A DNA stretch of 64,000 bases from Owenia fusiformis (taxonomy: Eukaryota; Annelida; Polychaeta; Sabellida; Oweniidae), in the NCBI GenBank assembly GCA_903813345.2, contig CAIIXF020000007.1:20261564-20325563 (forward strand), in the 5' to 3' direction. A program made the position numbers and the translations under genes. Below the pieces are notes generated by a model. It ran no database searches. It was given only the letters and a program-made list of their open reading frames with translations, and was not told where the DNA came from. Position 1 is the first letter of the stretch, and each line of letters starts with the position of its first letter. Shown here piece by piece: positions 4,217 to 54,821 of this stretch.

Positions 4217-7200
4217 TTAACTGTGACTGGTTTTATTTTTAATATGAAATTTGTTCATTACATTTTGAATTGTAAGCGTGAAGGCATCATCATCATCATC
4301 GTAGAAACCATACTGGAAATATTTCCCTATTTCAACTATTCTTTCCTGCATCTTTCTAATTGTTTCTGTTGGTATATCACCTAACAGCTTCAAAACAGAA
4401 CGTTTATTTTTCATAATGTCCTCTTCATTGAGCAAAATAGTAAATGTATGGTATGGGTATGGGAACCCGGCGTGTTGCATATCTATGAACGGATAATACG
4501 CTGAGTGGTTTGTGAAAATCACCGGAATGCACCCTGACAGCAGTCCATCAAAGAATGATTTGCGTGTAGGGGTGTCTCCATGAGGCTGGAAGAACAATAA
4601 CAAGAATTAAAACAATAAAAGGGTGATGCCATTTAAGGCATGCTATTACTCAAAATCTATCCGGCATTTACAAGGCATTAACATGACAAAATGTCACCAC
4701 CTAGTTGCTCACAATATTATCAGTTCAGGCTTAGTCACATTTGAATTTCTGAGAACTTGTAGATTTTTATTTATCTTTTTTTAAATTTTTTTTTATTTAT
4801 TTTCATATTCATTTAGTATTACATTAACAGATGATTTTGAAAAAATAAATAGGTCAATTTGAAGCAAGTTGAAAAAAGACCTGCTTGAACATAAGAAGGT
4901 CATTGAAGGTGACATCTCAAATCTAGAGTCAGTTTTGAAAAATAGATAACTTGTAGATGATTCTGAAAAAAAGATTGGTCAATTTGAAGCAAGTTGAAAC
5001 AATACCTTTTTGGCCTTTTTCACCTTGAGAATGTCATTGAAAGTCAAAACTACAGTCGAACTTATAATATATGAGTACATACATAAGGTACAGGCAATAG
5101 TAACATCACCGAGTTCAATATTGACAGTTTAAGTGCATTGTTTAGTATTGCATGAAGTTAATTCCTTTAAAGAACACAATAATAAAATGCTGAAATTCTA
5201 TTCTTTGATATATAATTACAACGCACTCAGCAGGTACACTCCCCTCCATAAGTTTGGCAACCTTTTTTCCCCATTGAACTACGTGTTAAAGCCTCTTTAC
5301 GTTTGAATTTTTATTACTTAACCGGCGATGAAATAACTTATAATATTAATGGAAACGTAACTTGACTTTATTTCCAATACCTCCACATTTTCTCAATTTT
5401 TTTCCTGAATTACAATAGGTCGAAAATTGATGATAAATTTGATGAATTTTTGAAAATCGTCATTCCCATGTAATCCAATGGGAAATGGAGGGTTCGGGGC
5501 AAATCAGAAATCAGGATAAATTTTCAGTAAAAGATTCAGCAAAAAATATTTTTATATAGGAAATTGAATTGTCTAACTTTTTTGAACACTAAGTGTTTAG
5601 TTTATTTGATGAATATTAAAGTTACAGCGCTTCAAAGTCATTTTTGAAAATAATTTTTCGCCTCCTGTGTTATTTCAATGGGATAGGTTTTTTGAAAAAC
5701 AATTTTGACTTTAAAAACCCCTATAACTTTGTTGAACCTGAAGAAACATATCAATTTTTTGTTAAATAAAGTTAGCAAATTCAATTCCCTGCCTAACTCG
5801 TATTTTTTGCAAGGACTCGGATGGATGGATATTCTGTCATATGACTTGCGGCAAACCTACCATTTCCCATTGGTTAACATGGGAATGTCGATTTTCAAAA
5901 ATTCATCAAATTTATCATCAATTTTCGACCTATTGTAATTGAGGAAAAAAATTGAGAAAATTTGAAGGTATTGGAATTAAGGTCAAATTACGTTCTCAGC
6001 AATAGTTTAAGTATTTTCATCGCAGATTAAGTAAATAAAAATTCAAAGGTAAAGAGGCTTTAACACGTAGTTCAATGGGGGAAAAAAGGTTGCCAAACTT
6101 ATGGAGGGGAGTGTATATCAGGGTGAAATGACCATCAAATACGGCATATGCATTGCATAGAAATTGAATTAAATTCATTTTATTTAATGCCGCAATGAAA
6201 TGCTGAGATCATATTCTGTGGTTCAATTTTTACAATGCACTAGAAATATCAAGGTGAATTGGTGATCATGCTAGTGCAAACTGCACAGCTCCATGTACCA
6301 GGTCGTTCAATAAGTTCACGGAAAAATGCTCTCATTTCAAAGATTCTTGATATTTTCCCATAAAATTTTCACACAATGTTTAAAAAATACTTTCTGATTG
6401 ATTCTTAAAATCTCAGCATCTCTAATTAGATTGGTCAAAAATAAGGGTTACTATGGTAACTTGACTTTTGGGTAGGCGGGGCACGTTTTACGTCACACAA
6501 TTTACCATTACAGAAATCTATCAATATGTGCAAAGGAAGGATCCTTATTTTTTATTTGTTCTTATTCAAATTACAAATTTTTGAGGGAAAATTGATGTTC
6601 ATTGTTTTCACGAACATTTCTGAAATTGTGCTAGTTAATGCTGTACCAGTGGACCAGAAAATCAACAAAGTAATGGTATAATGGTAAGTTGATTAAAACT
6701 TCCATTCAGCCGAACTCTAAATAATTCCATCAGAATAATGCAGCCGATCACACTGCTAATATTGTGCAGGAAACCATCACAAATAACTGGCAAAATAGAT
6801 GGCAAAGCTGCCCCAAGTTACATACTCTCCAGATGAGACAACTTTGATTTTGTTGTTTTCTCTAGGATGAAGGATCAGCTAAGAGGTTGACTTTATGAAA
6901 CAATGAAGCTACTTTCGACTGCAGTCCAGATTGCCCTTCAAACAAGTTTTTGAGATGACTTCAGAGCATTGTCTCGTCAATGGCTTGAATGGAACCTACT
7001 GTGCATTAAACATGCAGGAGAATATTTCTAAAACCTTATGGGACAATAGTTGTTACTATTATCACATTAAGTAATATCATGTACAAGTAGAAAGCGAAGG
7101 AATTCATGTGATATACTCATAAATTGCCTACTATTCTGTTGTTTTTCCAATGAATAATGTGACGTAAAAAGTGCCCCGCCTACCCAAAAGTCAAGTAACC

Positions 7201-10200: not shown

Positions 10201-11899
10201 TAATATTCTACTTAGTATATTCCTAATATTCTAAGTAGAAGAATTCTATACCTGCATATATCGTAAGCTTTATTTGTTCGTTTTTCATTAAAAATGTTAT
10301 GGATAACCTAAGAATCTTGTAAGAAAGTTGATTAATCAGTTTTTGTTGGATCTGTTTTTGGTCACCCTGTACATTCAATTGAACTGTTCCCATACATACC
10401 CTTTGCACTGTCGACAGTGCCATGAAATGTGGTTTCCCTTTCTTGAAGAACGCCGATGTCTTTATAATGGTCCATACAATTTTTTCCAACGTTTTGAAGC
10501 CTCGACCACAAAAACAAGACAGTCCTGCATAGTAAGGAATATAAAACAGGTCCGCCTTTGATGCATCTTTTGTAACAAGACCACTTCGCAAAAGTTTATT
10601 ATGAAAGATAGGCTCTAGTCCAAACTGACATTGACTTGTCACTACATATCCTTCCTTATCCATCGTCTCTAGTGTTTTACCATATCCCTGGTAATTGAAA
10701 TAATTACATCCTCGTCCATGCAAAGGTTTGTTTGTAGGGTCACTCAAACATGTAGTTATGTTCATATTAAAGCGATCGTCTAATTGATATATGTATATTT
10801 TGATTTTATCGGCGGTCTTATTTTTCAAACTGAAAATACAAAATGTAAAAAATTATTCGAAGGGGTGGTGTATTTATTTCACTAATATTTATTTGCGAAC
10901 GTAAAACAGGGGGTTAAGTTTGTTTTGAGACTGCAAACGAGAATCTTATGCAATAAGTCACCAACAAATTATTGGACTATAATAAATGAGTGTCAAATTG
11001 ATGAGAATTAAATAGTAGACATGCTTTTCTGCAGTGTTAATCACAACATTTTTTCTAAAACATGTTCACTATTGGTTTCACTTATTACACCTAGAATCAA
11101 TGAGAACAGGTTGTAGATGACGCTTAATCAATTTATTTATGTAAATGTCAAAGCAAATTAGATGCCAACATATTGCAGCATAAAACACGTAAAATAACAA
11201 TGATACATATAGAATGAAAGGTAGGATAATAATTTTATTAATAGTCAAGAGGTAAGTCGGCGAAACAGTTGATAAGGTGCCATCATGCCTTCAATCAAGA
11301 TGTGTTGCATTTTCTGATTTAGTTAGCGTGAGGATATATGGACATATTGAAAAGCTCTAACACGTCTTCTGCTCTAAAAAAGTTTGCCATAGTTAGTTTC
11401 TTTAGTTCCTATGAGAATACTTGAGACTGATAAAGAAATCATTGAATTAAGAATCACCTCCTAATTAAAGACTTGAAAGTATTCATTGAATGCAGAAAAA
11501 ATGAACTCAATGAGAACTCAATTTCGTTTTTTGTTTATGATTGAATATGTTTACTCACCCTGATCATATTCCATCCAAATAAAACTGGGATGGACTTGCC
11601 CTAACGCCAAGGATAAAAACTACCAAGGAAACGAGGGACTAGTATTATAAAAAGGTTAAGCATGAGACTCACCTTGATGAATCCTCTTCTGAAAATCCAG
11701 ATGATGGTATGAAATCAAACAACCGTTCATCTGCTTCTAGGTTAATGTTGTTTCTCATTGTGATGTATTGGGGACTCTGCAATCTTTCTATATTTACTCT
11801 TGTGTATATGATGTAAGGGAGAGCAGTAAGAAATCCTATTATTATAACGGAAATAACAAAACGATGTTTTGAAGTGAACATGTCTCTGATTATCCGCAC
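4217..11899 (-). CDS. Exostosin-family (GT47) glycosyltransferase, four exons
   Basis: Exons, in order on the minus strand: 11899-11673, 10829-10400, 8739-about 8422, 4585-4217. They give about 447 residues. Exon 1 encodes a short cytoplasmic tail and one hydrophobic anchor (VISVIIIGFLTALPYIIY, residues 15-32), the type II topology of Golgi glycosyltransferases. Exon 2 starts the catalytic region (KIKIYIYQLDDRF, KADLFYIPYYAGL). Exon 3 continues it (HMKFVIIEG, SSCFGL). Exon 4 has the GT47 signature HGDTPTRKSFFDGLLSGCIP and runs to a stop. The exon 1 donor AG|GTGAGT is phase 2 and is completed exactly by the exon 2 acceptor; exon 2 to 3 is phase 0. The exon 3 donor is the weak point: family alignment wants a break near 8429, but no GT is there, so GGC|GTCGTC at 8422 is my best choice. 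An alternative start is the internal Met at 11881, which aligns with the paralogous exon at 20.9 kb. The sugar substrate cannot be told. Confidence 0.88.
4670..5060. mobile_element. Pearl/Helitron-like tandem-core element, truncated copy A
   Basis: It begins with ACATGACAAAATGTCACCAC and continues CTAGTTGCTCACAATATTAT, almost identical to the start of the element at 46.8 kb. It carries two diverged copies (about 4851 and 4976) of the roughly 120-bp core containing GGTCAATTTGAAGCAAG and AAGGTCATTGAAGGT. No 3' end is visible. It lies in the last intron of the GT47 gene. Confidence 0.75.
5237..6113. mobile_element. 877-bp foldback transposon, TA target (Tc1/mariner-type MITE)
   Basis: The ends are CACTCCCCTCCATAAGTTTGG and its complement, each next to TA. 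The arms pair almost along their whole length (for example CCATTTCCCATTGG inside both), with a centre near 5675, so the unit is one giant imperfect palindrome. A one-ended relic of the same family is at 52347. It lies inside the GT47 last intron and contains no transposase. Confidence 0.92.
6298..7358. mobile_element. 1061-bp TA-flanked element with long terminal inverted repeats
   Basis: The left end CCAGGTCGTTCAATAAGTTC matches the complement of the right end, with TA on both sides. Arms of about 200 bp include the shared block TTGACTTTTGGGTAGGCGGG. No transposase frame is open. The start CGTTCAATAAGT resembles mariner-type ends and the family at 19965. It sits in the GT47 last intron, 185 bp from the previous foldback. 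Confidence 0.9.
7640..7740. repeat. Two short relics carrying the ATGTCNCCAC terminal motif
   Basis: AATATGTCACCACTTCTGGTG and CACATGTCCCCACTTCTGGTG follow one another here. They share the start motif of the tandem-core elements at 4.7, 28.3 and 46.8 kb, so they are probably cut-down ends of that family. The rest of 7361-8198 is AT-rich with nothing else that I recognise. Confidence 0.45.
8199..8268. repeat. Dispersed repeat, inverted copy of 62719-62786
   Basis: TTTTAGGTGATTTTGTAGAA and CAATGTGTGAAAAGAATT recur in reverse complement near 62.75 kb. The family is unknown; it is about 70 bp long here. Confidence 0.7.
8762..10080. mobile_element. 1.32-kb TA-flanked inverted-repeat element inside GT47 intron 2
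   Basis: The ends are CGACGTCAGATACTGTACAT and its complement, with TA on both flanks. Length and target match Tc1/mariner-type insertions, but no transposase domain can be read. It fills most of the 1.66-kb intron and stops 22 bp short of the exon 3 acceptor, so the branch site may lie within it. A GC-richer 86-bp open stretch (9741-9826) is described separately. Confidence 0.88.
9741..9826 (+). CDS. Possible first coding exon of a transposon protein (very basic)
   Basis: An ATG opens a 29-codon frame reading MTRGSVKKSRKTVRQRERMA and then EKRDKEEN. It ends at AACAG|GTAGGG, a good splice donor, two bases before an in-frame stop. Composition (Lys/Arg/Glu) and local GC differ sharply from the surrounding AT-rich DNA. 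Similar basic N-termini occur in proteins encoded by invertebrate transposons (from memory, not checked). No following exon was found, so this is probably a fossil of the autonomous parent. Confidence 0.35.
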
Positions 11900-35009: not shown

Positions 35010-37132
35010 CTGACCCTGGCAATTTTTACAAATGGATAGAAAAAGGATGTTTAAATAATTTTACCATCGTAATTTTACCATGGGGTAAATGTTCATTACA
35101 AAGAGCCTATCAATGTGGAAATTATCGGAGATCTTTCCTTCATATCGTATCATTCTTTAGGCTGTTTCTTAATAACACTAATACATTTTGCCCGGGTCTG
35201 TGTGTCATCAAGACTGGGAGAGGGGAGACATCTATGAATGGAAAGAAAAATTCTAATCCACAGTGAAAATATTGATTTGTTTTAATTTTTCGATCATCAT
35301 AATTATTTTTCGATTTTCACACCTATTCCAAACTATCTTCTACTGTTGATGGCAACCACTGTTCTAAGGATTTCAGCAATCTTGAGCATAGCTACATTTA
35401 AAAGCCTAAAATATAATAAATATAATATAATATAACTAATATAATATAATATATCAATTCATTCATATCGCTGGAAGAACATGGATTGATCATGAGGCTT
35501 CTAATAACCAAGTTAATTATGATACATGTATGTATTGTCGTTAAATAAAATATAGGAGGTTTTATCTGAGGTTTTATATAATAAGCTTCGAGGCTTTTCT
35601 GCCCAGGATCATTTTAGTTTCCTCTATTAACCTTCCTCTTGACCGGCCTTATTGTCCAATTACCTCTATGTATAGCGGTCCATAGACTACAGGGCGTATA
35701 AAAACGAAACAAAAACGATAAATCGTAAAACCGCAAACTATATGATAACTGCATAATAATCTATGTTTTTGTATAGTGGGGCAAAATCAGTTTTGGAATA
35801 CCCTGCGTGCAGAGTCTAGTTAAACTACAGAAGACGAAGCTCTGTTTTAAGAAGTGAAGTCAAACGAATGCAAAGTGTAGTTTTGGAAGATTCAGCAAAT
35901 GGGACTGGTGTTGAACATAAAGATGCGCGACAGTGATGACTGCAATGATTTCGTAGTTCAGTGTTCAATGAAGGTTCATTTCCTCTTTTCAAAGATATGC
36001 AATTACACGGGGTCATGGCTGGCTAAATGATCATGATTCCTGTTGCACAATGGGTCAAAACTCAAAATCAGCCAGGGACCAAGTTTTAGACTATGGAGAC
36101 TTTAAGCTAGCGATATTTTTTCACAACGTAAACGTGAACGCAATCAACGGTAACATGTATAATTTATTTGCCTCTACATAAAGAGAGTTACATTCATATT
36201 TTACATCAAATGATGCATACATACAGAAAATTATACACACAGAATTCAAATATGCCATCAAATAGAGAAAATGTTAGTCTTTCATGATTAAAAATGAAAT
36301 TAAAAACGAGACTTTAACGAGATTTAGCATGTGATCCTAAAAAATCAGGAAACCACCTTGGGCCTCGTTCTACCACTTCGAACTATCTATGTTGCAATAA
36401 TTAGTTTTCGCCTAGGTAATTTTCAGAACTCAAATACAAGCCTATCATCATCAAAGGTTTCTTCTAATGACTTTTATATGAGACCTTTCATTTTTGTCAA
36501 AACTCTTAATCAACTTAATTGAGTAATATAATACTGCATGCGTGTGTTGAATAAGAACTACGTAGACTACACAGCCATACAGTTGTATAGCTGCAAAAAT
36601 AAATTGTAAACCTAATACTTGTATATACGCTGATAACGAATGACGCAGTGTTTGTATTAATTAGAGACAAATCTTTTCTCGATATATATCATAAAAGGAA
36701 ATATTTATATCATAAATCTGTCTGCCATATGATTCTATGAAGCTACGTTAGAACATGCATATTGAAGAAAAGTATTAATGATAAGATAGCGAAGGATAGC
36801 AACTAGGATGACCTGTTAATCCGAGAAATTACTGAGCGTTGTACTAACAGTGTCAGGTGCATTTAATGTTATTTTGATATTGTGAGATACAGCAGCTTTC
36901 TAGGATGCAGAGGTAAGACAGTAATTGTCATATCCCCAGGATGTTTTAAAAAAACAATCAAGCACATCCGTATCTAAATAGAAAAAGATACCATGCAAAA
37001 GTGACGTTAGTAACGATGATATACGATTAACGTTTCTTGGAATTTCTCGCAACTTATGTTGAAGTAACAAGCAGGGACTTCAGTCTTCAGATATCCGTTT
37101 GAATTAATTGCAGTATAAGTGCATTCAGCAAT
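35010..37132. other. Intergenic stretch upstream of the ANKRD34-like gene
   Basis: Contains an ATAAT-rich simple run (35405-35450) and a one-ended relic of the 16970 family at about 36088-36150 (GGAGACTTTAAGCTAGCGAT...). The last few hundred bases should hold the promoter and 5' UTR of the following gene, but no element can be pinned down. Confidence 0.5.
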
Positions 37133-38845
37133 ATGGCCTCGCCACATCGTAGAAACAGATCTTCTACTGCTGGCTTTTGTCATGTTTGTTCGGCGGGAAA
37201 TGCTTTAATGAAGGCCGCCTGCTCTCGCCGGTTACGACTCTGTCGTCTGCTAATCGAAGGTGGAAGTTCCATCAACTCTACAAACGAAGTTGGTCAGACG
37301 CCTCTGACTGTTGTATGCCTGTCTGATGAAGAGCACCAACACGCTGCGCCAAAAGAAAAGGTAATCGAGTATTTCCTCCAAAAGGGAGCAAATGTCAACA
37401 GTCAGGACAATCGCGGACGGACTTGCTTGATATACAGCTGTATGCAGAATCTAAGTTTCGCAATTATCAGACTACTCATCGAAAGTGGCGCGGATCCGCT
37501 GATCATTGACGACACGGGAACAAATGCTTTGAACTACGCTGCTCAGCATGGTAATACATTTATCATAGCTGCTCTTACGGAATCTGTACGAGCGACGGGA
37601 AGAGATGTAATTTTGATTAAGCCAACACCCTCCGATATACAAGAAAAGCTTTCAGAAAGACGCCAGAGCTACACACAGCGAAGGCACAATTTTCAGAACA
37701 CGTGTACCACATATCTTGGAATTCCGACTATGTCGCCTATTGCAAGCCCTGGGTGCGAAGCGTTGACGCCAACAGATATAATACCGTCTCTTGATGAAAA
37801 ACTCCAGGATAAATTTGTTTTTCAATTTGGAAATGGAGATAAAGCAAATACGGGTCAACCAATAGCAGCTATTACAGTATCCGCTGCTCAAAATCAAAAA
37901 GAAGAGAAAACCCCCAAATCTACGGACATAATATATACTCCCGTGACTCGACCGAAGTCGCCCAAATCAGCCACAAATGAATACTCGGATACAGAGAAAA
38001 CAATTGTACGGAGATTCTCTCGGACCCTAGGAAGCATCGATACGGACGACCTTTCACAGCCAAAACTTTTGACTAAAGGCTCATCAATAGAAAGCGATTC
38101 CGATTTCATTATTCATCCGGGTTCTATTCGATCACCAGATAGAACGCGCAAAAAGAAAAAAGGGAAAAAATCTAAGAAAAAGTCGGAAGTTGTAGCAATA
38201 GACGTTCATGCTTTTGATTTACACAGTCCTGAAGATAAAGCACTGTATTCCAAAGCTGAAACGTCACCCCGAAGGTGTAATACGCGAACTGCATGTTCCG
38301 AGGAAGTTGAGTTACCACTAAGGAGGCGGTGTTCATTACCGTTAATATCACTAAGAGCCGCTGGCATTGCAGCTTTGAAATTAGAGGAATCGATGTGTCA
38401 TCACAGTGCCGATAACTCTGAAGTCGATTTATCAAAGGAACTGGAAAACTCTATCGAGAATATTGATTTAAGAAAAGTAAGAAAAACTTCTGGAAAACAG
38501 CTTGTTGATAAGATATCGAAATCAAGAAAGACAACACTGCCTCCCCTAAATCATAACAGGATAATGCCAGGTATCTCGAAGGAGGGTAGCATAGACGAAG
38601 ATATTACGGAAAATGAGAAAAACTGTATTCTTAAGAAAGCTCTACTTGAGAAGCATCCAAGTAGGAAGTTTTTCCAAAACAAGAGTGTGTCGTTTCAAGC
38701 AGGAGATGGGGTAGCTCCAGCATTTATCGACCAGCGAACCGCAATGCCCTCTAAGGGCCTTCCTGGTATGGGAGGGGAGCTGAAGGGAGGGCATACCTTT
38801 CGAAGGCGACATTCTGTATTCGCTCATTATAAAACAAATAGCTAA
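37133..38845 (+). CDS. ANKRD34: ANKRD34-like ankyrin-repeat protein, single coding exon
   Basis: A single uninterrupted frame of 570 codons. Residues about 22-150 form four ankyrin-type units: GNALMKAACSRRLRLCRLLI, GQTPLTVVC, GANVNSQDNRGRTCLIYSCM, and GADPLIIDDTGTNALNYAAQ. The order, the opening 'GN(A/S)L(M/I)KA...RLRL.RLL.EGG', and a following 'GR/KDVI.I' strand match vertebrate ANKRD34A/B/C, whose coding region is also a single exon. The rest is low-complexity and Ser/Lys-rich, with a lysine tract (about 336-352), several PKSPK-like sites and a basic C-terminus containing RRRHSVF, a basophilic-kinase-like site. The start is the first ATG of the frame, after stops upstream. Molecular function of the family is not established. 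The possibility of a retrogene is low, as the family is natively single-exon. Confidence 0.9.
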   Translation: MASPHRRNRSSTAGFCHVCSAGNALMKAACSRRLRLCRLLIEGGSSINSTNEVGQTPLTVVCLSDEEHQHAAPKEKVIEYFLQKGANVNSQDNRGRTCLIYSCMQNLSFAIIRLLIESGADPLIIDDTGTNALNYAAQHGNTFIIAALTESVRATGRDVILIKPTPSDIQEKLSERRQSYTQRRHNFQNTCTTYLGIPTMSPIASPGCEALTPTDIIPSLDEKLQDKFVFQFGNGDKANTGQPIAAITVSAAQNQKEEKTPKSTDIIYTPVTRPKSPKSATNEYSDTEKTIVRRFSRTLGSIDTDDLSQPKLLTKGSSIESDSDFIIHPGSIRSPDRTRKKKKGKKSKKKSEVVAIDVHAFDLHSPEDKALYSKAETSPRRCNTRTACSEEVELPLRRRCSLPLISLRAAGIAALKLEESMCHHSADNSEVDLSKELENSIENIDLRKVRKTSGKQLVDKISKSRKTTLPPLNHNRIMPGISKEGSIDEDITENEKNCILKKALLEKHPSRKFFQNKSVSFQAGDGVAPAFIDQRTAMPSKGLPGMGGELKGGHTFRRRHSVFAHYKTNS

Positions 38846-41039: not shown

Positions 41040-43110
41040 ATAGCGGTTTCATTTTTAAATGTGAAAGTGCATATTTGATGTGAGCGAAAATTTGAATTAT
41101 CTGTTTGTCCCCTGTGCGCAAGGCGTCATCAGTTGAAATCAGTAATTATGTAATGATAAGTGTGAAATGGCAGATAAGGATGCATTTCAAGAGATATATG
41201 CAAAAGTGCCGGAAACAACAAGTCGTACTGACATCATTACTTCCGTGCGTATTATCATTCAAGGATGAGCCGTCTTTTCAGTTGATAAATTTTTATCCTT
41301 CTCGTGATGATGATTATAGCTTGTTTGACTCACCACATTGAGCAAAGTGATGAATATAAATAAAATAAAGATATTTGGCAACATATTTTATAATAATCCT
41401 AAAATTTATTATATAATTTACAATTCTTCGGATTCTGTTGAATCTTACAAATAGACGCAAGTGAGTTATTACGTTAGTGGCAAGTGGTGTCTTTATGTTA
41501 GCTATAAGTACCGCTTAATGCAATTGCTTTCAACATACCGGTTTTTCAAAATTCTAAAATAGAACAGAATGTAAAAGGAATAATAAACTCATTTAATTTG
41601 ATACGTCTAAAATATGAGATTTTTGTGAAATATCTATGCTAGTTATAATTACGTATACATTTCTTATTTCGACTTTAGAGCACCTTTGTGAATTTTAACA
41701 ATTATAAACAATAGACATGGTGGAATTTGTAGATGAACAAACATAATTTTTAAGAAATCCTCAAATAGTGTCCCGTTTTTTAGTTGAACTCCGTAGAATA
41801 TGTACATGTATATAGTGATATGATATTTGGAAAAATGAATTGACAAAACTGCGACAATGAGAGAGTCAATAAAAGATACACACATATATGGACGAGAAAA
41901 TTCTCTAAGATGTTAGTACAAAATTGATGTGATTTAACATTATATATATTATACGGTTGTCACATCACTTTACATCACTAAACGCATGATATACAGTACT
42001 TATGATGCAGACAATTTAACATGACAAACGGGTGTATGGTTGCCACATCATATAGACCGTATATCGTGCTGCTGTCCCTATTGATATAATGTTGTATAAA
42101 TATTATTTGATTTGTATGTGGACATGCCGTCACTTGTTAGTCTTGAATAATCATAGATGTCATGAAGTGATGATGATTGATCGTTATTGATGTCATGTGG
42201 TACATGTGATATACCGTATGTGACTGCCACGTATAAACATATGATTAAAAGTTCTGCAATAAATGTGACATGAAATCTGACAAATACAAACAGTATAAAA
42301 TGAAACTAAACGCCAATTGGACGAATGGCTCATATGCCTGGCAGTTTTTTGCTTAGCCCCGTTTAGAGACAGTACTCAAGGGTATAAAACATTTTTAAAG
42401 ATCGCCACTTGGAATTATACACAAATTCTTATATACATGCCCTGATATATAAACTCAAAAAGATAGGTAGTAAGATGATTATTGTAAACATCGTTGAGTA
42501 TTTGTTGATCGATCAGTTTTGTAATTTACATAAATATCATCCTCGTAGAGATTACTGTATGTTGAAATTTCTTCTAAGTGCCAGATCTTCTTTTGCATAT
42601 GTATGCATTTTATCACTATGCATACACTGACTCCGAGGTATAATTCTCAATACAGTTCCTCTTGTCCGATCTGCGACTATGTCGTTTCCTATCTAAAATG
42701 AAAGAGAGAATAGTATTTAACAGACAAGTGTATAATTTTACACACACTCAGTGGCCATAGAATATGGTAAATATAATCCATTCACATCATGTTCGTTACG
42801 TGAACTGTGTATGAAATTCTGTAATCGTATCAAGCAAAGGTGAAGAGGATTGCATGAAAAATCGGAGATCCGGCTTTGTCGGAATATGTTATTTTATTTT
42901 ATTTTTTTAACATATTATTTATTTCCTTCATAATAAAAAAAATACACAAAATATCTACTACCAATCGCCATAGGCATTCTAGGTAGTTTAAATTACAATA
43001 GAGGATTAATTACAGTAGTCATAGATGGAATATGTTATTAATCAAGTTGATAAATAAAATAGTTCCATAAAAACGCTTTAGAATAAATGTATGTAAAATG
43101 TGATACCTGG
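41040..43110. other. Unannotated stretch downstream of the VWA gene
   Basis: AT-rich. TGTCACATCA-like words recur between 41950 and 42240. T-rich runs near 42890-42910 give AATAAA-type signals on the minus strand and could serve as the VWA gene poly(A) region. No gene seen. Confidence 0.5.
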
Positions 43111-43117
43111 GATTTAT

Positions 43118-46100
43118 TTATGCTGATGGGCAAAGTTTGCCGGCCAGGTTGTTAATTGCATCTGCGTAAAGGGCCTCGTCAAAACTAGCTAATTTGATGA
43201 TATGATCAGCGTCATCAGCTATATCTGCTAACTCATCGTCCTTTACTTCACTTGTGAATCCAATCACAAACACTTCAGCACCATTGCTGCGAAGTTGGTT
43301 GGCCGCTGAGGCAAGGTTGGCCTGAAATGACAAAAACAAACGAATTTGAACTTTCAAGCTTGCACAAAATTGTTACAAGAATATGTCACTATGCATGGTC
43401 ATTAATCATTCCCAAATTCTACTGTATATACTTTTCAAACACAATGATAGAAACCTTGTAAAACAAAATAAAATGAGAAAGAGATACAATCACACTTGAT
43501 TCATCAAAGGTATCGTATATATGCCTGACGGAATTACAATGGTTTAACACATATGGAATAACAAGGCAGGGCAGGGCTATTCTCATGGACTTATGGAAAA
43601 AATTAATGCTTGCTCAAAGATCTCATTCCAGGACTCCGGGCCACGACATACATGTAGTTTGTTTTACATGATTTTGAGTAACAGTAAGTTTTTGTTACTC
43701 AAAATCATGTAAAACAAACTACTGTATATAATTTATGATGCAAATAAAAATATTTAACCTCAAAACCTTACTCTGTCATCTTTAGCAAATCCGTCCGTGA
43801 GTAGGATAGCTTTGTTGGCGCGACTGTTGAGGTCTCCCTGGCTACTAGTGAACATGTTCCCGAACTCTCTGACTGCGTTAGTAAGAAATGTGGAGCCACC
43901 GCTGTAACTGGTTTGCATGATCTTTGATCTTACAGTAGACAGACTTGTACCCTCATTGAGGGAGAGCTCACGCTAAAGAAATAAATAATAATGCTATTCT
44001 TACATGGGATCATCATGATAAGATGATAAACCATACCATCTCATTTCTTCTCAGCCCTGAGATGTTTCAGGTGAAACAGAAAGGTGCTATAAGTATCAGA
44101 ATGATATGGGATGGTGATTAAGTTGCATTTACATATTATATGACAATTTATGCGAATGGGCTCTTCCGAAGATTTAATTAAGTTTTCTTTTTATATTTTG
44201 GTTTGACGATACAATGTACAGCAGTAGAAAAACTACAAACTTTTCAATTTATGTCGCGTGTAAAGCCCGGTATACACCAATGAGGCAAAATCCCACTTGC
44301 CCCATCGAGTCCCATCTTGCCCCATCGAATCCCAATTTGCCCCATCGAATCCCACGAAGTCCCATGAGACCTTGATGACTTTGCCCCATCGTGCCCCATG
44401 GAGTCCCATCAAGCCCCATGGAGTCCCATCAAATCCCACCGTGCCCCATTGGTGTATGTCGGGCTTCACACAACACGTCATATGATCGAAAATCCCACGA
44501 TGCCCCATGGAAAGAATGAACATGTTCATTCTCGATGGGACTCCATGGGACTTCGTGGGATTTTGCCCCATCGAGTCCCACCGAGTCCCACGTGGGACTT
44601 CATGGGACCTCATGGGACCTCGTGGGACTCGATGGGGCAAGAGGGGGCAAAATCCTACGGAGTCCCATGGAGTCCCACGGACTAAAAGTTGATTTTACAA
44701 GTTACAAGGCCTTTACACTCAGAGCCATTTTAACACAAACGTGCTTACTCGCATATCCCCAGAAAAGCTGAACGCCCCAAGGTGGGTCTGGTCATATGGG
44801 AAAATCTCAGCAACCTGACGAGCGAAGTTGAGTTCCTTAATGAAGTCTGCTCCCAAGCTGCCAGACCTATCGATTCCAATCACCACGTCAAATGCTACGT
44901 TGCAGCCTAAAAGCAGAGAATCAAATATATATTCATATAAAATATTAAAACACTTGTACAATTTAACATATTATATATTTTATTTTACTGCATTACGTAT
45001 TTTATGTCTATTAATCTTTATATACTACCGAATTGGAATTTTTCCATTCTAACACTGTGTTAACCCTAACTTTAACTTACTTCTCTCACAAACGGCGCCT
45101 CCAAATCCACTGGGGCAGTTACATTCAAAACCAACACTTAGGTCAATGCACTGGCCTCCGTTCTGACATGGTGTACCAACACAGCTATTTTCACCTGCAA
45201 ACAAAGAAGACAAGCATTAAAAACAGTACAAAACTGAATGACATTGAGATGTTAAGTTGAGAAATTAAACTCACTTTCAGAAGGAACTTTCTCATTATGT
45301 GAGAACATTTTGTATTAGTACTGCACTATTTCAGATAAATTCCCTTAAATGATACAATATACAATGTACAGGGTATCATATAGTATATCAGATCACAATG
45401 TATGACATAACAATGTTTCAGAGTATAATGTATCAGAGTACAATATATCAGATTACAATGTATCACATGGCAATGTTTCAGAGTGCAATGTATCAGAGTA
45501 CAATATACCATATGACAATGTATCTGAGTACAATGCATCAGATTTCAATGTATCACATGGCAATGTTTCAGAGTGCAATGTATCAGTGTACAATATATCA
45601 TATGACAATGTATCTGAGTACAATACATCAGATTACAATGTATCACATGGCAATGTTTCAGAGTGCAATTTATCAGTGTACAATATATCATATGACAATG
45701 TATCTGAGTACAATACATCAGATTACAATATATCACATGGTAATGTTTCAGAGTGCAATGTATCAGAGTACAATATATCATATGACAATGTATCTGAGTA
45801 CGATACATCAGATTACAATGTATCACATGGTAATGTTTCAGAGTATAATGTATCAGAGTACAATATATCAGATCATAATATATCACATGACAATGTTTCA
45901 GAGTGCAATGTATATGAGTGCAATAATGAATCAAAGAATATAATGTATCAATAATGTCAAGTTTTAGGGTCCAAACATGCAATATACAATACATACTGTC
46001 TACAACCCTGCTGACAATAAAGGCCTCCACAGATGTGTCATAGTCGAAATTGTCTCTGTACAAAAAGTTATCTTCATTGGGGTAGCTGGATATTTGAAGA

Positions 46101-49100
46101 AGCTCATCCTTATCAACATCTGGACCAAGACCAACAGACATCAAGGTAGCACCACTCTCTCGCAACAGTTCTGCCTCTGCCCTGAATGATAAATTCGTTA
46201 TATAAATATGCAAGTACTTTGAAAAATGCCTTGACAGATGAATAATAACATAAAATATGAATATAAATATATAGTCCAATTTTATTTGTTTTCACTGTTA
46301 TACGAACCTTGGATTGCCGCCGTTATCACCAACATTTCCGGGCCCATTGGAGAACAATACTGCAAAATTGGCGGAACCTCCTCTGTCCCCTGATTGGCTG
46401 AAAACTTCCTGTCTTGTTTTCAAAAGGGCCCCTTGGACGTTGCTGCTTCCTCCATAAAACTGCAGGCCGTGTATGGCAGTGACTAGTGAATTTACATCTG
46501 AAAACCTGAAACAAATACCATCATCTATTTAAAGGGCTTACAGCTTTACTATTTTTAAAACTACTATTAATTCGTCTTTTAGAGAAAAGAAAATTTGACA
46601 TTTTTGAGCTAGTCTAGATATATGTAATGCATTTTATATTTTGGTGACTTGATGCACATATTGGTATATCATGTATTAGGGAGACAATGAACATACGTGT
46701 TTGAACAAAGGCTAAAACTAGACTTGCAAGGTTACATGATGACAAAATGTTAGTATGGCGATGACATGAAAACCACCACAAGTTTATAACAAGGCATCAA
46801 CATGACAGAATGTCACCACCTAGTTGCTCACAATATTATGAGTTCAATCTTAAGTCAGATTTGATTTTGAAAAAAATTTGTCAATTTGGAAAAAAATGAC
46901 CCTGAGAAGGTCGTTAAAGGTGAAATCTCAAATCTAAATTCGGATTTGAACTTCTGAGATCTCATACTGATGATTTTGAAAAAATTGGTCAATTTGAAGC
47001 AAGTTAAAAAACCTCTTTGACCTTGAGAAGGTCATTGAAGGTCAAATCTCAAATCTACAGTCACGTTTAAACTTTTCACAACTTGTAGATGATTACAAAA
47101 TTTGGTCAATTTGAAGCAAGTTAAAAAATACCTTTTTGACCTTTTTGAAAAGGTCATTGAAGGTAAAATCTCAAATCTAAAGTCAGGTTTAAACTTCTGA
47201 GAACTTGTACATGATTAAAATAATTTGGTCAATTTGAAGCAAATTGAAAGGTACCATTTTGACATTTTTTGATCTTGAGAAGGTCAAATCTTAAATCTAA
47301 AGTCAGGTTTAAACTTCTGAGAACTTGTAGATGATTAAAATAATTTGGTCAATTTGAAGCAAATTGAAAGGTACCATTTTGACATTTTTTGATCTTGAGA
47401 AGGTCATTGAAGGTCAAATCTTAAATCTAAAGTCAGATTTGAACTTCTGATAACTTGTAGATGATTTTGAAAAAATTACAGTCCGTCTAAACGGTGTTTG
47501 ATTTAGTTATTGGAAGTTCTAAGAATTTGTTACATGTCATGTTACCATATTTTGGTTGTGACATAATTATACTATAGCTAGATGATCACATGATGAACAA
47601 TATGCATGTATTTATCATTAACACAAACCTGTCTAATGAAATATCAGCATTTGCTTCGCCATTGAAACTGACAACGCCAAATCGAATGTCATCTCCGAAC
47701 CACTCTCTCAAGTCTTGTATGGTGCGCACCACCATCAATTTCATGTAGCCAAAGTTGCTCTCACCCACACGGCTGTCTGCCACTCCACTTGAGCCATCCA
47801 AAATGAATACAATATCAGCTGTGCGCCTTGAAACGGCATCTAAAAATCATATCGAACAACTCAACGTTAGATCAATGGAAAACCCTACTATTGCTAGGTT
47901 TATTTTCTACAGCAACATTCCTGTCAAAACATTATATATGTGCATAGTTTGAATTGAATAAATGGTTCCAACATCTTTAGTTGTCCACTTATAAGCCAAA
48001 TATATAGCAGGCGTTATATTGTCTGAGGCTATGTCTGGACGCCAATTGTGTGTTCCACAAAGTAGCCGGCTGACTCTTTGGTCAGCTTAAAAATTGTATC
48101 GCCAGCCTCCATTATGAACCTTGACCTTTGGTCGGTCTCAGTCAAAAGTCAAAGATTTACAGTCTCAGTATAATCACCTTTAACAGTCTACAATTGTATA
48201 TAGTTATATGATACTTACTTTTGTTGAATTCACAAGCTACGCCATATCTGGTGTCAGGACAGGTACACTTATACGTGTTGATGAGATCCACGCACACTCC
48301 TTCGCCACAGTCAGCATTAACACAATTATCATTGACTGAAAACAAAGTATGAGTATTCCCTGTCAAATGTATCAAAGTGGATATGTAAATAACAGGATAT
48401 TCTCAAAAAGTCGGGTGGGGTAAGCAAAAATTGCTATAAATCTTACCTTCCTGAAAATATTCATTTTCTCAATACAAGCAAATGCATCAATGTATTTGTA
48501 CCTAATAGTTTAGAGTTGGTAAGTTTGTTTAATAAACAAGGGATTGACATGAAAAATGTCACCACTTTTCATTTAATTGTTTCAGACGCCGAACGCCGAC
48601 AGCCAAGCGCTGGAGTTGGATACTATATACTACCTTTGGTAGTGTGCCCACGAACTGACAGTATCTTTTCATGATTTCTTAAAATTATTATCTTCTTATT
48701 ATGACATTGTTTTTCCACGGTTGCCACAATGATTGTATCTAAGCATTTTCCTTATTCGTTTTGAAATTATCGTTTCTATCATAAAACTAAGAGGCTAAAA
48801 GTACTGGCATTCAAATTGGGCAATAGGTAATAGAATTTGATATTTCATATTTCTCATTCGACAGCCGTGCATAAGTGAGCTGATTGTTATTTCATCATTT
48901 GGTTTCCTGTTCGATATTTCTTCTTTTATTCAAACCAGTTCAGCAATAAGCTCGTCGTGCAGTTTTAGAATGGACTTTTAAGAGAAAGCCAATGTTTTTT
49001 ATCTACACGCCCATAATATGGCAATTATTTAGAATAATAATAATCTGAAATGCCTTTCCAAATCACGACAGTCTCTGACTTACCATTGTTCAGGGCTGTC

Positions 49101-52100
49101 GTTGCGAAATTGACTTGACCACCGAGATCATTGAATGACGAGATAGACACGTGGTATGATTCAACAGGTTCACTGGCGATCCTGGCTGCCATTGGAACCA
49201 AGAGGCGTTGTCTTTCATCCGTAGTTTCAGCCGTAAGAACCATTATCTTTACACCATCCGCTTTCAGCTCAGTGGCAGTTGCGTACTCCTGTCCCTTATT
49301 GAGCTTAGACACGTCATCAGCAACAAGCACTAAAGCGTTGGGAGCGCTCATTCTATTACCAGCATTGCTGTCTGCGAATAGGCTCTTTCCAGCTTTAAGT
49401 CCAGATGACACATCGGTGGCAAGGCTAGGATCATTCAGATATGAGATGCCGTCAATTGCGTTCCTCAGTGTATTGATGGTCGTGAATTCATTGAACTTAA
49501 ACATTATTTCGCCATCCTGTCCCCAGCGAATGACAGCTATCCTTTCCTTACCTATATAAAAATGAGAATCATGAAAAGTATTTTGATTTCATTTACTACG
49601 GGAAAAATTCGATGTGCCAAGGCCTGAGATTCAGATCTTCATCATGGGTTGATGAAACGAGAACAGTGCGATGGAACATGGACGTAGTCTTAGTTATTCA
49701 AAATTGACCTCTTGCATGCATCATTTATTGAAATATGTGGCTGTATAAATGCAGTGTACTCGCAATGATTAAAGGTAGAATTAAAAAATAACATATAACT
49801 TTGAAAAATTAGTTTGCATAATAATGTCACTTTTTTCTAGACACCCAAATCTTAATTATTTAGACATATACCCGTTATCCTCGTGAAAAATCCACATTTC
49901 AAAGTGACAATTTCATGACTCAGAGTCAACAAACATTGATTGAAATATGTTGCTTTAAATTTTGTTATCCTTTTATACATTTGGTTCTTGTAACAAACTT
50001 ACCACCAATGTCCAAGTTGTTGGCAACTGATTTGACAAATTCCTTTTGTCTGGTGAAACCGGAACTCCCAACACTAGCAGTTGTATCTAGAAGGAACACA
50101 ATGTCGGCTCCGGATCCACCTGTATCCTCTAAAATAAATCATTAGCTTACAGATGAGATGGTTGTTCAGGAATAAAAGCTTTACAAATCCAACATTCGTA
50201 CAGTGAGTACCATACTAGTTTATTCACGCTTTGGGCAGCAGGCAATAGATGGCTACGTTGAAAGTCTATCTGTACAGTTTGATGCGCTTTCCAATGGTTT
50301 GATTCTCACATCTTAAAAGAGAGCTTCATCTTATGCACTGTGGACTGTGGTCTGATCTGACACTCAGGGTAAAATAGGTTCCGTATTTTCATTTCCAAAT
50401 GTGAATTTGACAGTGTGCTTATATTACTTTTTATTTTTTATTTTATATGTATATTTATTTATCAATCAAATGATAATATGAATTCAATGTACTACCTTTA
50501 TCACAATTTGCTCCAATCCAACCAGGTGCCGTATCACAATCACAAATATAACTCTCGTCTTGCGAGATACAGGTTCCCCCGTTCAAACATGGTGTAGTAA
50601 TACATGGATCTGTAAAATAAGTAAACTGGCAGAAAGGTGCAATCATATGTCACACAATGTACCCTTTGCATTCGTTCGACTTCACCTCTTAAAAGAGAGT
50701 TTCGTTAGTTTATAACTAGACTTTGCGCGCAGGGTTAGTTGGATATGAAATAAAGACGACATTAAAGTGTCTCACATATTCGATCAAAATTTGCCATGCA
50801 AACATGTTAGTCTACTTTACTGGCCCCCCTTGCTGTAACAAGGAACCCAAAACACATTAAAACGTAAACATAAACCAATTAGTCACTTCACTATGAAAGT
50901 GAGGGGTGTTAGTCCATGCACACAGCGTATTCTGCTAATACATATTTGCTAACACAATATCAGTGGTCATTTACTGTGTCAACTTAGTAACCCTTGCATA
51001 TCGTGCTCACTCAAGAATTGAATATTTTTTTTATGATCTAAATGTTTGTGGTTTCACAAAAAATGTGATATATTTTAGTTAGAAATACATTAATTAATAT
51101 ATTCATTCAAACAGCACTAGAATGCGGGAAGAAAGAGCAATGGTGACAAAATGCAGACAGAATTTTCTGTAAGGGTTTCAAACATTTCTGGACACAATCA
51201 TACATGTACTTCATGTGTACTGTTATTTTTAGTGCTGTATTTATAGATATAATTTCACGTATTAAAATCATATTTTCCAGCAATGACTTCAAATTCGGAA
51301 CCACACCCATATCACATTTTCTTCAATAACTCCAAACATGTGTAAACATTGACCATGTGCATATTAATTCAGATTTCACGAGCTCTTTCCTATTCGAGTA
51401 CCTCATACACCCCTGCATGGTTTTGAGTTGGATTCGCCTTTTATACGTGAGCCGACACACTCGCAAACGCTGATTGGATAAAGATTGCGAGAATCTTTAA
51501 TGACAAAGAGCTACTGCACGTATAAATTATTATTAATAATATTTTATTTGTCTATGTTTTCCTTACATTATTTTACATGCACGTATAAATGATCTGCTGT
51601 CGTTTGAAAATGAAATTCATTCAACCAATAGTATGACCATCAGCAAGGTATCGGATATCTTACCACCCAAAGTTCAAGACTTACGAACACTTATGAGTCC
51701 TCCAAATATAATACATAACCATTGGATATACTGAGGTTACATCAAAAGTGTCTATGTACATTTTTATTTTCTTATTGTCTTTTTCTTAATGTATTACAAT
51801 TTATACTTTCCATCCTCCGAACGCAGGGTTCCAGACATCATCCACTAAGTTCCTTCCTTCTTCCAGAAGGAGGTACGAGTTCTGGAGGCCTGTGTTCGGA
51901 GGATCACAAATTGGCCAAACGGCTCGTCGTTCATCGTTCTCAAAATTTTTTACGGTACGGGGATTTTGTCACACTTAACTCTGCGACAACCTTGCGCTTA
52001 GCCTTGCTTCAAGACTGTGTACCCCCCTATACCTTCAGTTATGTGGGAAAGGTGGAGTACACAAGGGGAGTATACAGTCTTGAGACAAGACTACCATGCG

Positions 52101-54821
52101 CTGTACAAAGAGGAAGTCAAATACCAAAGTTACCTGAACTCTTCACTTGTATGTTATCGAAGGCATAATCTGCTGACCAATATTTATCTGTAGTTGGTAA
52201 GGTTGCAGTAATACGAACATATCGTGTGCCACTTGGCAGGCTCACGTCATCTATGGATTTCCAACTGTCTCCGGATGTTAAGTCAAGTGTGACGGGTTGA
52301 TCTGAAGACAAAGGATATACATTTTTTATACATTGGTCTGTATGTACACTCCCCTCCATAAGTTTGGAAACCATAAGTTCCCTTTATGAAAGCCTGTTTA
52401 TGTTCGGCGACTTTTAAAAATTCATCAAATTTGTCATACTAAACTATAGTATTAAAGGAACGAAGTAAGGATCATTTTACTTTTACGAAGTTCCATTATT
52501 ACCAAGGTATTAATTTGATGAAACTAAATGATTGTAAAATATACGTATGTGGAAGCCCATTTGTTCTGAGCTACCCAAGTGTTCTGACTCTTGTGCCCAA
52601 CTGTTCTGACAACCCAAGTGTTCCGAGTTCACTTATTTTATAATATCTTAAAATTCACAAGAGAGGTTGCCAAAAATCTAATTTTGCTAGAAAAATGATA
52701 GGATGAAGTAAGAGAATCCAAAATATTGGCCCAATTGACCAAATTATTAAAAATACGCATCCATTTTCTAAAATTGAGGCCCATTTTTTCAAAAGGCCTT
52801 TTTTCCAAAAATGAGGCATATTCCTTAAATTGAGACCCAGCCTAAATATTTTTATATATTCTGTCTAAATATTATATTGCTCAGGAGTGTTCCATGGTGC
52901 AAAAGTAGAACAAGGGATTTGACACTCCTCAATGGGTACCCTGTTAGTTTATGTAAATAAATAAAAAGCCTTTTGTGCATGAAACAGCCACATTATAAGT
53001 GATTTCATTTATTCAATTTCAACAGTCATCTCCGTAGAAACCTAAAATTGAATAAGAAATTGAAAATCACAATATCGAGTGTATTTGCCTAAATAAGTAA
53101 ACCCAAAATACTTGGGTCAAGTCAGAATACTTCGGCAAGAGTCGGAATACTTGGGTACCCAGAACACTTGGAGCTTCACATACGTATGTTTATATGATGA
53201 GTTCATGCATAATATCAGGTAATTTAATCTAAACATTATCAGTTCTATTTTACTTACCAAATACGAGAGTCTCACGATCAGCATTAAGTGCAGTGACTTC
53301 AACTTGTCCATCTTGAACTCCATCTCCGCGGGAATAATACTTAAACGAGAACGTCTTGAACCCAGATGGGAGCTCGGGGGAGAGGATTGATACTGTGTTA
53401 CCCTGGGAAGCAGGTGGAGAGCTTTCCACATACATGTAAAAACCTTCAACAAATAATGTTTTAATAATTCAGTATAAGCAGAAACTGTTCAGTTAGGGAA
53501 TCACTGGTTTACTAGAATCTCCACTAAATGATAAAGGGATGTGACTTCTTCAAGGACTTTTATCTTCGGCAAATCTACACTAAATAATAGGTCGATCAGT
53601 GAGACTTCTTACTTCAGTACCATTTTTATTTATAAATGATGGATTCTTGCGACTTCTAATCTTCTTTAATCATGAATTGGTACTTTTGATAAATCAATGT
53701 AACCTCCTCTTCCCCCGGGGAAGGATCGATCGTCCGACTACTTACTTCCAAAATCTGTTGAGACTGGGCCAGTGTGTCCACTTGGAGTGGCTTGATCAGT
53801 TCTAAAGAATTGCAAGTTGTCATCCGTCGATTGTGTCATTCCGCTAAATCCGTCTCCACAGCCACTGGCCTCACTCGGATTATCCCAACCAGTCCTTTCA
53901 AAGTCACAACTCCATACCGTAGTTCCTGTTGAAACAAAAAATTATAGTCTTTATAGACTGCACTTAGGACATTCCACATCTACTCACCAACACATGTAGT
54001 TGGGAGGGGGGGGGGGGGGGGGTCACAGGCGCTTGTTGCTATACTAAAAATAATAATCTATTTGTTTTTACCAACAGTTCGTAACACTTCTTAAGTTATC
54101 TTTTCATTATGAAAATTCCCGATAAAAGTTTCATTTTGAGAAGAATGAGAAATGCCATTTGAAACATGAGTGTCAATTATTACATTTTGTATATAGAAAT
54201 GTTGAATATACAGGGTCGACTAAAAAAACAATATGTACAAGTTTAACACATGTCAAACCTTGCCATTTTAAGGATAAATAATTTCCTAACAATATGACAC
54301 CATCCGATTGAAAAACTTTTCCGGCTAAAATTGGCACCAGGGATGTCATGAGCGCCCAAAGAATTATTCGCTGTGGATTTCCAAACTGTGGAAATGGAGC
54401 AAAATTGTATTTTGGCACCTTCAGAAGAGGTACATTTATTCAAGTTTAGTGCAAAATTCACCCATTCTAATTAACTATCAATTTTGGATTACTCTTAAGT
54501 AAATTCACGCCTGGTAGCCTCTCACCTCAGTGTCATATATGTTAGGAAATGATTTATCTTTAAATGATAAACATGGAATATGGTTCAACATATACCATAT
54601 AAGATTCATCTTGGTTTTTTGGCCAACACTGTATATACTGGTAGGTCAGCATTTTCAAAAATAGTGTAGACCTTCGCCTTAAATTTGGAATTTCGAAAAC
54701 AGTAAAAAAGTTGAATTTGCCGCTACTTACCACTTGATTGTCTTTTCGTTCTATGTTTGATAACACTTGAATACGTTAATGCTATTGTAACTGCAATCAC
54801 GAGCGTCTTCATTAAAGCCAT
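43118..54821 (-). CDS. Secreted MAM-EGF-VWA-EGF-VWA-EGF-VWA protein, 15 exons, complete
   Basis: Exons on the minus strand: 54821-54731, 53925-53746, 53443-53258, 52301-52134, 50609-50496, 50128-50003, 49551-49084, 48335-48219, 47839-47629, 46505-46308, 46181-45997, 45194-45081, 44906-44749, 43972-43772, 43321-43118. All introns are GT-AG and the frame stays open for 2721 nt (906 residues). Residues 1-20 ([20 protein letters not shown]) are a signal peptide, followed by RTKRQ, a furin-type site. Then MAM (31-208), EGF1 (209-246), VWA1 (247-444), EGF2 (445-483), VWA2 (484-681), EGF3 (682-719) and VWA3 (720-906). Every module border is a phase-1 intron, as in exon-shuffled extracellular proteins. 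There is no membrane segment or GPI-like tail, so a matrix, mucus, adhesive or shell/cuticle role is plausible. I do not recognise an orthologue with this exact order. Confidence 0.95.
43654..43722. repeat. Perfect 30-bp hairpin with 9-nt loop in an intron
   Basis: GTAGTTTGTTTTACATGATT continuing for 30 bp is exactly complementary to 43693-43722; the loop is GTAAGTTTT. It lies in the VWA gene's last intron but one. Perfect pairing argues for a recent insertion or duplication and not for a conserved microRNA. Confidence 0.9.
44030..44112. repeat. Dispersed repeat, inverted copy at 57236-57330
   Basis: CTTCTCAGCCCTGAGATGTT and TTCAGGTGAAACAGAAAG recur in opposite orientation 13 kb away. CTCAGCCCTGAG is itself a palindrome. 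Likely a small unnamed MITE. Confidence 0.75.
44262..44690. repeat. GC-rich GATGGGGCA/GTGGGACT repeat block, inverted halves
   Basis: The left part repeats TTGCCCCATCGAGTCCCA-like 18-bp units; the right part carries the same text in the other orientation. The two halves meet at the perfect 20-bp palindrome AGAATGAACATGTTCATTCT (about 44512-44531). Within the left half, AAGCCCGGTATACACCAATG and CATTGGTGTATGTCGGGCTT form an inner inverted repeat (44262-44470). Open frames on both strands are by-products. Located in a VWA-gene intron. Confidence 0.9.
45380..45955. repeat. 15-bp minisatellite with 90-bp higher-order unit
   Basis: The basic unit is close to CAATGTATCAGAGTA. CAATGTTTCA or TAATGTTTCA marks the larger unit at 45471, 45561, 45651, 45741 and 45831, exactly 90 bp (six units) apart. 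Because 15 is divisible by 3 and the unit lacks stops in several frames, long open frames arise on both strands (plus 45398-45943, minus 45545-46279) as pentapeptide repeats. It lies in the intron after VWA2. Confidence 0.95.
45997..47839 (-). other. VWA domain 2 (exons 9-11)
   Basis: 198 residues in 594 nt, the same coding length as VWA1, though split by introns at other places. [16 protein letters not shown] gives DGSSG in place of DxSxS, and the TDG loop is VLFSNGPG with no Asp. [14 protein letters not shown] matches the GGST.T.AL helix. The metal site looks lost. Preceded by EGF2 (48335-48219). Confidence 0.9.
46789..47567. mobile_element. Pearl/Helitron-like tandem-core element, copy D
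   Basis: Starts like copy A (ACATGACAGAATGTCACCAC, CTAGTTGCTCACAATATTAT). Carries about five units of 117-123 bp containing TTGGTCAATTTGAAGCAA, then GTCCGTCTAAACGG, and ends TTTGGTTGTGACATAAT, complementary to its start motif. Lies in the intron between VWA2 exons. Confidence 0.85.
48548..48584. repeat. Isolated AATGTCACCAC end, possible tandem-core element relic
   Basis: GACATGAAAAATGTCACCAC resembles the starts of copies A and D, but no core or 3' end follows. Confidence 0.35.
49084..50128 (-). other. VWA domain 1 (exons 6-7)
   Basis: 198 residues. [18 protein letters not shown] places DTTAS where the metal-site motif DxSxS is expected (Ser to Thr at position 3). The later TDG-type loop reads [10 protein letters not shown], so Asp is kept but in a changed context. 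Preceded by EGF1 (50609-50496, six cysteines). Confidence 0.9.
51811..51905. repeat. Inverted repeat around ATCCTCCGAACGCAGG
   Basis: CATCCTCCGAACGCAGGGTTCCAGA at the left pairs with TCTGGAGGCCTGTGTTCGGA at the right. The sequence downstream to about 52075 is less AT-rich and may belong to the same unknown repeat. No gene signal was found in 50650-52130 otherwise. Confidence 0.55.
52347..52450. mobile_element. One-ended relic of the 5237-6113 foldback family
   Basis: TA followed by CACTCCCCTCCATAAGTTTG and, further in, TTCATCAAATTTGTCAT as in the complete copy. The right end is missing. Confidence 0.7.
52544..53184. mobile_element. 641-bp TA-flanked inverted-repeat element with CCAAGTGTTCTGA motifs
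   Basis: The ends are CGTATGTGGAAGC and the complement of GCTTCACATACG. The arms contain repeated CCCAAGTGTTCTGAC / GTCAGAATACTTGGG words, three or more per arm. It is in the MAM-domain intron. Confidence 0.82.
54006..54022. repeat. 17-bp G homopolymer
   Basis: An uninterrupted G run in the first intron of the VWA gene, G-quadruplex-prone and likely length-variable. Confidence 0.9.

Follow-up and report, generated by a model that had tools for sequence, protein, structure and literature searches.

The DNA of Owenia fusiformis contains an intact gene whose product of 906 amino acids is a modular, secreted matrix-type protein. The gene fits a family of loci defined here by a MAM head and a VWA-EGF-VWA-EGF-VWA tail. 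The tail is common to eight loci, including this one, and its junction with different heads, together with a record in the intron phases, presents a compact case of modular evolution. The gene is encoded on the minus strand of the window (the whole 64,000-nucleotide stretch analysed), between positions 54821 and 43118, and 15 exons could be placed (Table 1), with outer ends exactly matching those of the initial annotation. The joined coding sequence of 2721 nt is translated into 906 residues with a single terminal stop and an unbroken frame, reproducing the exon number, length and continuity originally proposed. Exon boundaries were picked at AG and GT sites, and the splice signals (GTA at 12 of the 14 donors and GTT at the other two, AG at all 14 acceptors) are therefore partly a product of construction, the independent part of the support for the gene model being the single continuous frame that follows from the boundary choices. 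Pfam matches also cross the exon junctions, as with the VWA match at residues 492-666, which covers profile positions 1-166 and spans exons 9-11, and such matches are not given by chance. The acceptor-like TTATTTCAG is located 6 bases ahead of the ATG in exon 1, suggesting that an intron in the 5' UTR upstream of this start codon is possible. At the opposite end, an AATAAA overlaps the stop codon in exon 15 and further copies occur at 42923, 42903 and 42898.

All introns upstream of exon 9 are in phase 1, and each of the three EGF exons is flanked by phase-1 introns, as had been claimed for the cassette borders. The introns internal to the VWA domains are in phase 1 in VWA1 (exons 6-7), phases 2 and 2 in VWA2 (exons 9-11) and phases 0 and 0 in VWA3 (exons 13-15). 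Tandem repeats are found in intron 9 (46903-47466; a 120/243-base array), intron 11 (45386-45913; a 90-base array with sub-periods of 15 and 45 bases) and intron 13 (44289-44636; several short repeats of 10-40 bases).

Table 1. Exons of the 906-residue protein gene (window positions) and paralogue loci with MAM units ahead of the shared tail (genome positions).
Feature	Position	Strand	Content
Exon 1	54731..54821	-	Start codon (AAC ATG G context), signal peptide, RTKR furin-like site (aa 24-27)
Exon 2	53746..53925	-	MAM, first part (W-C-FE-GW-NP-GCG subtype)
Exon 3	53258..53443	-	MAM, middle; RGD at aa 129
Exon 4	52134..52301	-	MAM, last part
Exon 5	50496..50609	-	EGF1, phase 1-1
Exon 6	50003..50128	-	VWA1, first part (MIDAS DxTxS)
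Exon 7	49084..49551	-	VWA1, remainder; exons 6 and 7 together hold 4/5 MIDAS residues
Exon 8	48219..48335	-	EGF2, phase 1-1
Exon 9	47629..47839	-	VWA2, first part (DGSSG)
Exon 10	46308..46505	-	VWA2, middle
Exon 11	45997..46181	-	VWA2, last part; 2/5 MIDAS residues in whole VWA2
Exon 12	45081..45194	-	EGF3, phase 1-1
Exon 13	44749..44906	-	VWA3, first part (DRSGS), Cys721
Exon 14	43772..43972	-	VWA3, middle; MIDAS T and D
Exon 15	43118..43321	-	VWA3, last part, Cys903, stop
C7b	C7:18.578-18.587 Mb		MAM unit(s), then VWA-EGF-VWA-EGF-VWA
C7c	C7:13.601-13.610 Mb		MAM unit(s), then VWA-EGF-VWA-EGF-VWA
C7d	C7:30.215-30.237 Mb		MAM unit(s), then VWA-EGF-VWA-EGF-VWA

The encoded protein consists of a hydrophobic signal peptide, the RTKR furin-like site at residues 24-27, a MAM domain and three successive EGF-VWA pairs, and a Pfam scan of the joined protein supports the MAM, EGF and VWA assignments of the initial annotation. 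The VWA model (PF00092; cut-off 23.8) scored 246.5 bits over three stretches, with VWA1 and VWA2 reaching 81.0 and 98.4 bits when scanned alone. The EGF model gave 47.6 bits over two stretches and hEGF matched three; EGF2 alone falls below both cut-offs (20.5 vs 21.5 and 22.8 vs 29.3), and the six-cysteine spacing is present in EGF1, EGF2 and EGF3. Calcium-binding EGF domains carry the acidic N-terminal consensus (D/N)x(D/N)(E/Q)C, which was not found in EGF1 (SSDPC), EGF2 (VNDNC) or EGF3 (SENSC), and no EGF_CA match was obtained in the joined protein at E <= 1. The MAM match (PF00629; cut-off 26.4) is weak but passing, with 29.2 bits in the whole protein and 32.2 alone. MAM domains have four conserved cysteines and only Cys37 and Cys53 occur within this one; so divergent a MAM may not oligomerise like that of meprin. 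The RGD motif falls inside the MAM, and an RGD occurs at a like position in one MAM of locus C7c. Among the VWAs, the MIDAS residues (DxSxS plus T and D) are complete in VWA3 only (5/5), with 4/5 in VWA1 (T for S) and 2/5 in VWA2. VWA3 is also flanked by Cys721 and Cys903, three residues before the end of the protein, and VWA1 and VWA2 contain no cysteine. No membrane anchor was seen, with no 19-residue window past residue 40 exceeding a mean hydropathy of 1.1, in agreement with the proposal that the protein is secreted.

Paralogues were sought by a whole-genome search with the protein and with the Pfam MAM and VWA profiles, the best 150 candidates of each being scored, and the architectures given follow the succession in which open frames with matches occur in the stretches fetched from each locus. 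Three loci on the same chromosome as the gene, C7b, C7c and C7d, have MAM units directly followed by the tail (Table 1); for the C7d MAM array, sequence was fetched for the last ~5 kb before the tail and the remainder is taken from the genome Pfam MAM search. In C7b, a single open frame of 311 aa includes the last part of a MAM and, six residues on, a complete VWA. In C7a, C7e, C4 and C5, extra VWAs precede the tail (the C5 tail with one unread stretch). One MAM match over the cut-off occurs in C7a, ~0.5 kb before the first VWA, and none was found near C7e, C4 or C5 among the matches listed (best 150 MAM candidates), so that MAM heads occur at four or more of the eight loci. Six of the seven paralogue loci resemble the present gene in ending the frame 0-3 residues past the last VWA cysteine; the exception is C7c, where a GTAAGT donor is found at the position at which other loci stop. 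In C7a, a possible but weak donor (GTTTAT) lies immediately ahead of the stop. The shared order and end point indicate that the VWA-EGF-VWA-EGF-VWA tail is a family trait.

The initial annotation regarded the MAM-(EGF-VWA)x3 order as unusual. As a claim of uniqueness this fails in view of the three MAM-headed C7 loci, while the EGF between the MAM and VWA1 does distinguish the gene, no such EGF being found in C7b, C7c or C7d. These three loci also contain two or more MAMs, rather than one, and their first MAM exons, as far as fetched, are unlike exon 2. A full MIDAS is found in eight of their nine VWAs, in contrast to one of three here, and in 25 of the 30 VWAs from all paralogue loci, with the other five retaining 4, 4 (one of the residues a gap), 1, 0 and 0. 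Judged from the sequences compared, the distinctive traits of the gene are thus its single MAM, the extra EGF before VWA1 and its long-branched VWAs. Since the Owenia genome has several such genes, the arrangement is an infrequent variant assembled from widely used modules and not a unique case. Literature searches on MAM combined with VWA/EGF, and on tubes or von Willebrand domains in Owenia and its family, gave no recognised case of the MAM-(EGF-VWA)x3 order among the matches listed, which is not proof of its absence in print. Elsewhere in the genome, paired VWA matches with a spacing of ~1.885 kb and equal or near-equal scores form a tandem array at C1:37840411-37860487, within a longer VWA cluster (37796582-37866941).

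Exon 2 matched four MAM exons, one of them on C2 and the others on C3 (E 3.8e-22, 1.7e-19, 5.1e-17 and 8.4e-14), and no match at E <= 1e-3 was found to the MAMs in the fetched C7 stretches. Exons 3 and 4 likewise had their best match on C2, yet the C7 MAMs were matched too. In the genome-wide search with the protein, the places matched by its head were confined to the gene's own locus, C2 (62% over 66 residues) and C3 (45%). Another C2 exon of the exon-2 MAM subtype follows a Ser/Thr-rich stretch, and neither an EGF pattern nor a credible VWA was found in the sequence fetched from C2 (27.826-27.864 Mb) and C3 (32.745-32.763 Mb), a single VWA-model hit in the latter (E 0.61) being set aside. 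Mainly on the basis of one exon, the head appears to belong to another MAM subtype and to have been exchanged by shuffling through phase-1 introns, and it would have been brought onto the shared tail together with one extra EGF. Alternatively, it is possible that an older head was retained.

The three EGF-VWA cassettes had originally been interpreted as duplicates, and a recent duplication within the gene is not supported. Pairwise identity among the three VWAs is only 22.2, 20.1 and 22.4%, and none of the five internal VWA introns match in both alignment column and phase. An alignment of 33 VWAs was compiled from the three of this gene and 30 from the seven other loci, with C4_1, C4_5 and C7a_6 incomplete and at least four fragmentary domains left out. 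VWA2 is 36.1% identical to C7b_a, with which it grouped (97/83), while the nearest relative of VWA3 is C7b_b (33.5%), without support in the tree. The tree is weak, with 17 of the 30 inner branches open and the three query VWAs on long branches (1.9-2.9); the three VWAs need three changes on it, of which the starred branches alone force at least two, and they were united in 0% of 200 bootstrap trees. The low identity, the unmatched introns and the tree together suggest that the cassettes are most likely old, and on these three grounds a recent triplication of one cassette within the gene was discarded.

There is about an even chance that the product functions as a secreted multivalent linker of the extracellular matrix, in the tube lining, cuticle or mucus, with VWA3 as its main metal-dependent site. 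The signal peptide would be removed and the RTKR site perhaps cleaved, after which the MAM head could self-associate or dock to a partner, with matrix ligands bound by the VWA tail and the EGFs serving as short, disulphide-bonded spacers. VWA3, with its full MIDAS and flanking cysteines, would bind a divalent metal and a ligand, as VWA1 may also do, while VWA2 would be mainly structural. Secreted matrices often contain VWA, MAM and EGF domains. Among the papers found on the tubes of Owenia or Oweniidae, none was recognised as describing their tube proteins, and since oweniids are an early-branching, tube-building lineage of annelids, these genes are direct candidates. The tubes of Owenia collaris are reported to contain sediment grains and to have secreted linings that are layered and fibrous (PMC4375521). 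VWA is among the enriched domains in the tube proteome of Paraescarpia, a distant annelid, the architecture not being named in the accessible part of that report (PMC8476170). In coral skeletons, the matrix proteins include a TSP-1 and VWA protein and a MAM and LDLr protein, so that MAM and VWA, as far as the accessible text describes them, occur in separate proteins and with different partner domains (PMC4890752).

Individual features of the protein are also found in better-known systems. Tandem secreted VWAs as seen here occur in the mussel proximal thread matrix protein 1 (PDB 4cn8; E 3e-16, two stretches), and VWA arrays in collagen VI alpha 3 (PDB 9han; E 1.4e-46 for the whole chain), the latter with a collagen triple helix which is absent from the Owenia protein. 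Matrilins and AMACO/VWA2 are secreted and alternate VWA with EGF, as does the Owenia protein, while nephronectin and EGFL6 are secreted proteins with EGF, MAM and RGD. In the latter two, the MAM is located at the opposite end, and the RGD of the Owenia protein lies within its MAM. No MAM is known from matrilins, AMACO/VWA2, collagen VI alpha 3 or the mussel protein, which is not known to contain EGF either, and no VWA from nephronectin or EGFL6.

The alternation of VWA and EGF, secretion and absence of an anchor would also suit a protein of the matrilin or AMACO type, from a basement membrane or cartilage-like, with an incidental MAM. This is, however, unlikely: matrilins have a C-terminal coiled coil, whereas the Owenia protein has none and ends shortly past its last VWA cysteine, and the recurrence of MAM heads at half or more of the loci makes the MAM a regular part of the family. 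It is still less probable that the gene encodes a secreted immune or recognition protein, with VWA and EGF diversified by duplication. VWA and MAM do form large families in the genome, and their matches are clustered, but the tail is fixed across eight loci and the protein carries no lectin or other effector domain.

Another candidate role is that of a fast-evolving gamete or egg-coat recognition protein, whose MAM and VWA would take part in the binding of sperm to egg, as in the MAM-bearing zonadhesin. In its favour, the family is multi-copy and, of the 33 VWAs compared, those of this gene have some of the longest branches. No mucin, VWD or membrane part was found in the protein, however, nor any link to the gonad, and we regard this role as similarly improbable. 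The least probable explanation is that exons 1-4 belong to a MAM protein and exons 5-15 to a neighbouring gene for an EGF-VWA protein, the two having been misjoined. The head resembles MAM arrays elsewhere in the genome, and an in-frame Met shortly upstream of exon 5 makes a separate start conceivable, but the sequence following this Met is unlike a signal peptide, frame and phase run on from exon 4 into exon 5, and MAM is joined to VWA at three paralogue loci, at one of them in a single open frame.

The mature part of the protein (879 aa) contains no NxS/T sequon, against a mean of 9.07 in shuffled sequences, and only 1 of 20,000 shuffles had none. Shuffling in 40-residue blocks gave a mean of 8.18, again with zero in 1 of 20,000. 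Control motifs in the same protein occur in normal numbers ([ST]xN 8, NxxS/T 11, N[ST] 6, DxS/T 12, QxS/T 5). The 30 paralogue VWAs contain 20 sequons against 51.9 expected, distributed as none in C7b and C7c, two each in C7d and C7e, three in C5, seven in C7a and six in C4. The counts for C7a and C4 are close to those in shuffles of their domains, indicating that not the whole family is depleted. The lack of sequons in this protein was unexpected and is presented as a lead, since it was noticed post hoc and without a baseline from other secreted proteins; a literature search on sequon depletion gave nothing to the point among the matches listed. A more specific proposal, which we consider unlikely, holds that the MAM-headed VWA/EGF family comprises dedicated structural proteins of the sand tube of Owenia, or of the lining of this tube, from which selection has kept N-glycans away to let the modules pack or cross-link, and that this gene would be a hybrid with a head derived from mucin-like MAM arrays on other chromosomes.

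The mantle and foot suggested initially as tissues of expression are those of a mollusc and do not fit the host, for which both the Fox gene layout and a linker domain of annelid haemoglobin point to an annelid. The linker C domain of annelid extracellular haemoglobin, not known outside annelids, is matched three times in the genome above the curated cut-off. A search of the assembly for COX1 as a species marker gave no match. Forkhead matches, counted by domain and not by Fox class, number 38 and are located on contigs C1, C3, C4, C5, C6, C8, C9, C10 and C11, with a 30-kb pair and three further matches on C3 and tight clusters on C8 near 13.95 Mb (four) and C10 near 20.69 Mb (three). O. fusiformis is reported to have 35 Fox genes on nine of its 12 chromosomes (numbered differently from the contigs here), with foxF, foxC, foxL1 and foxQ1 sharing a chromosome, tight linkage of foxC and foxL1 only, and tandem foxQ2 genes on two chromosomes (PMC9539403).

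Rfam (at the gathering threshold) and tRNA scans of the window returned no match. Frames at 66-1649 (-), with an RVT_1 reverse transcriptase match of 74.7 bits, and at 1628-2935 (-), with no Pfam match, form a pair that looks like a non-LTR retroelement. Exon-like frames over the Exostosin GT47 cut-off at 4220-4606 (-) and 10226-10852 (-) mark a glycosyltransferase gene. A 580-aa open frame at 37103-38842 (+) contains ankyrin repeats and resembles the intronless ANKRD34 type.
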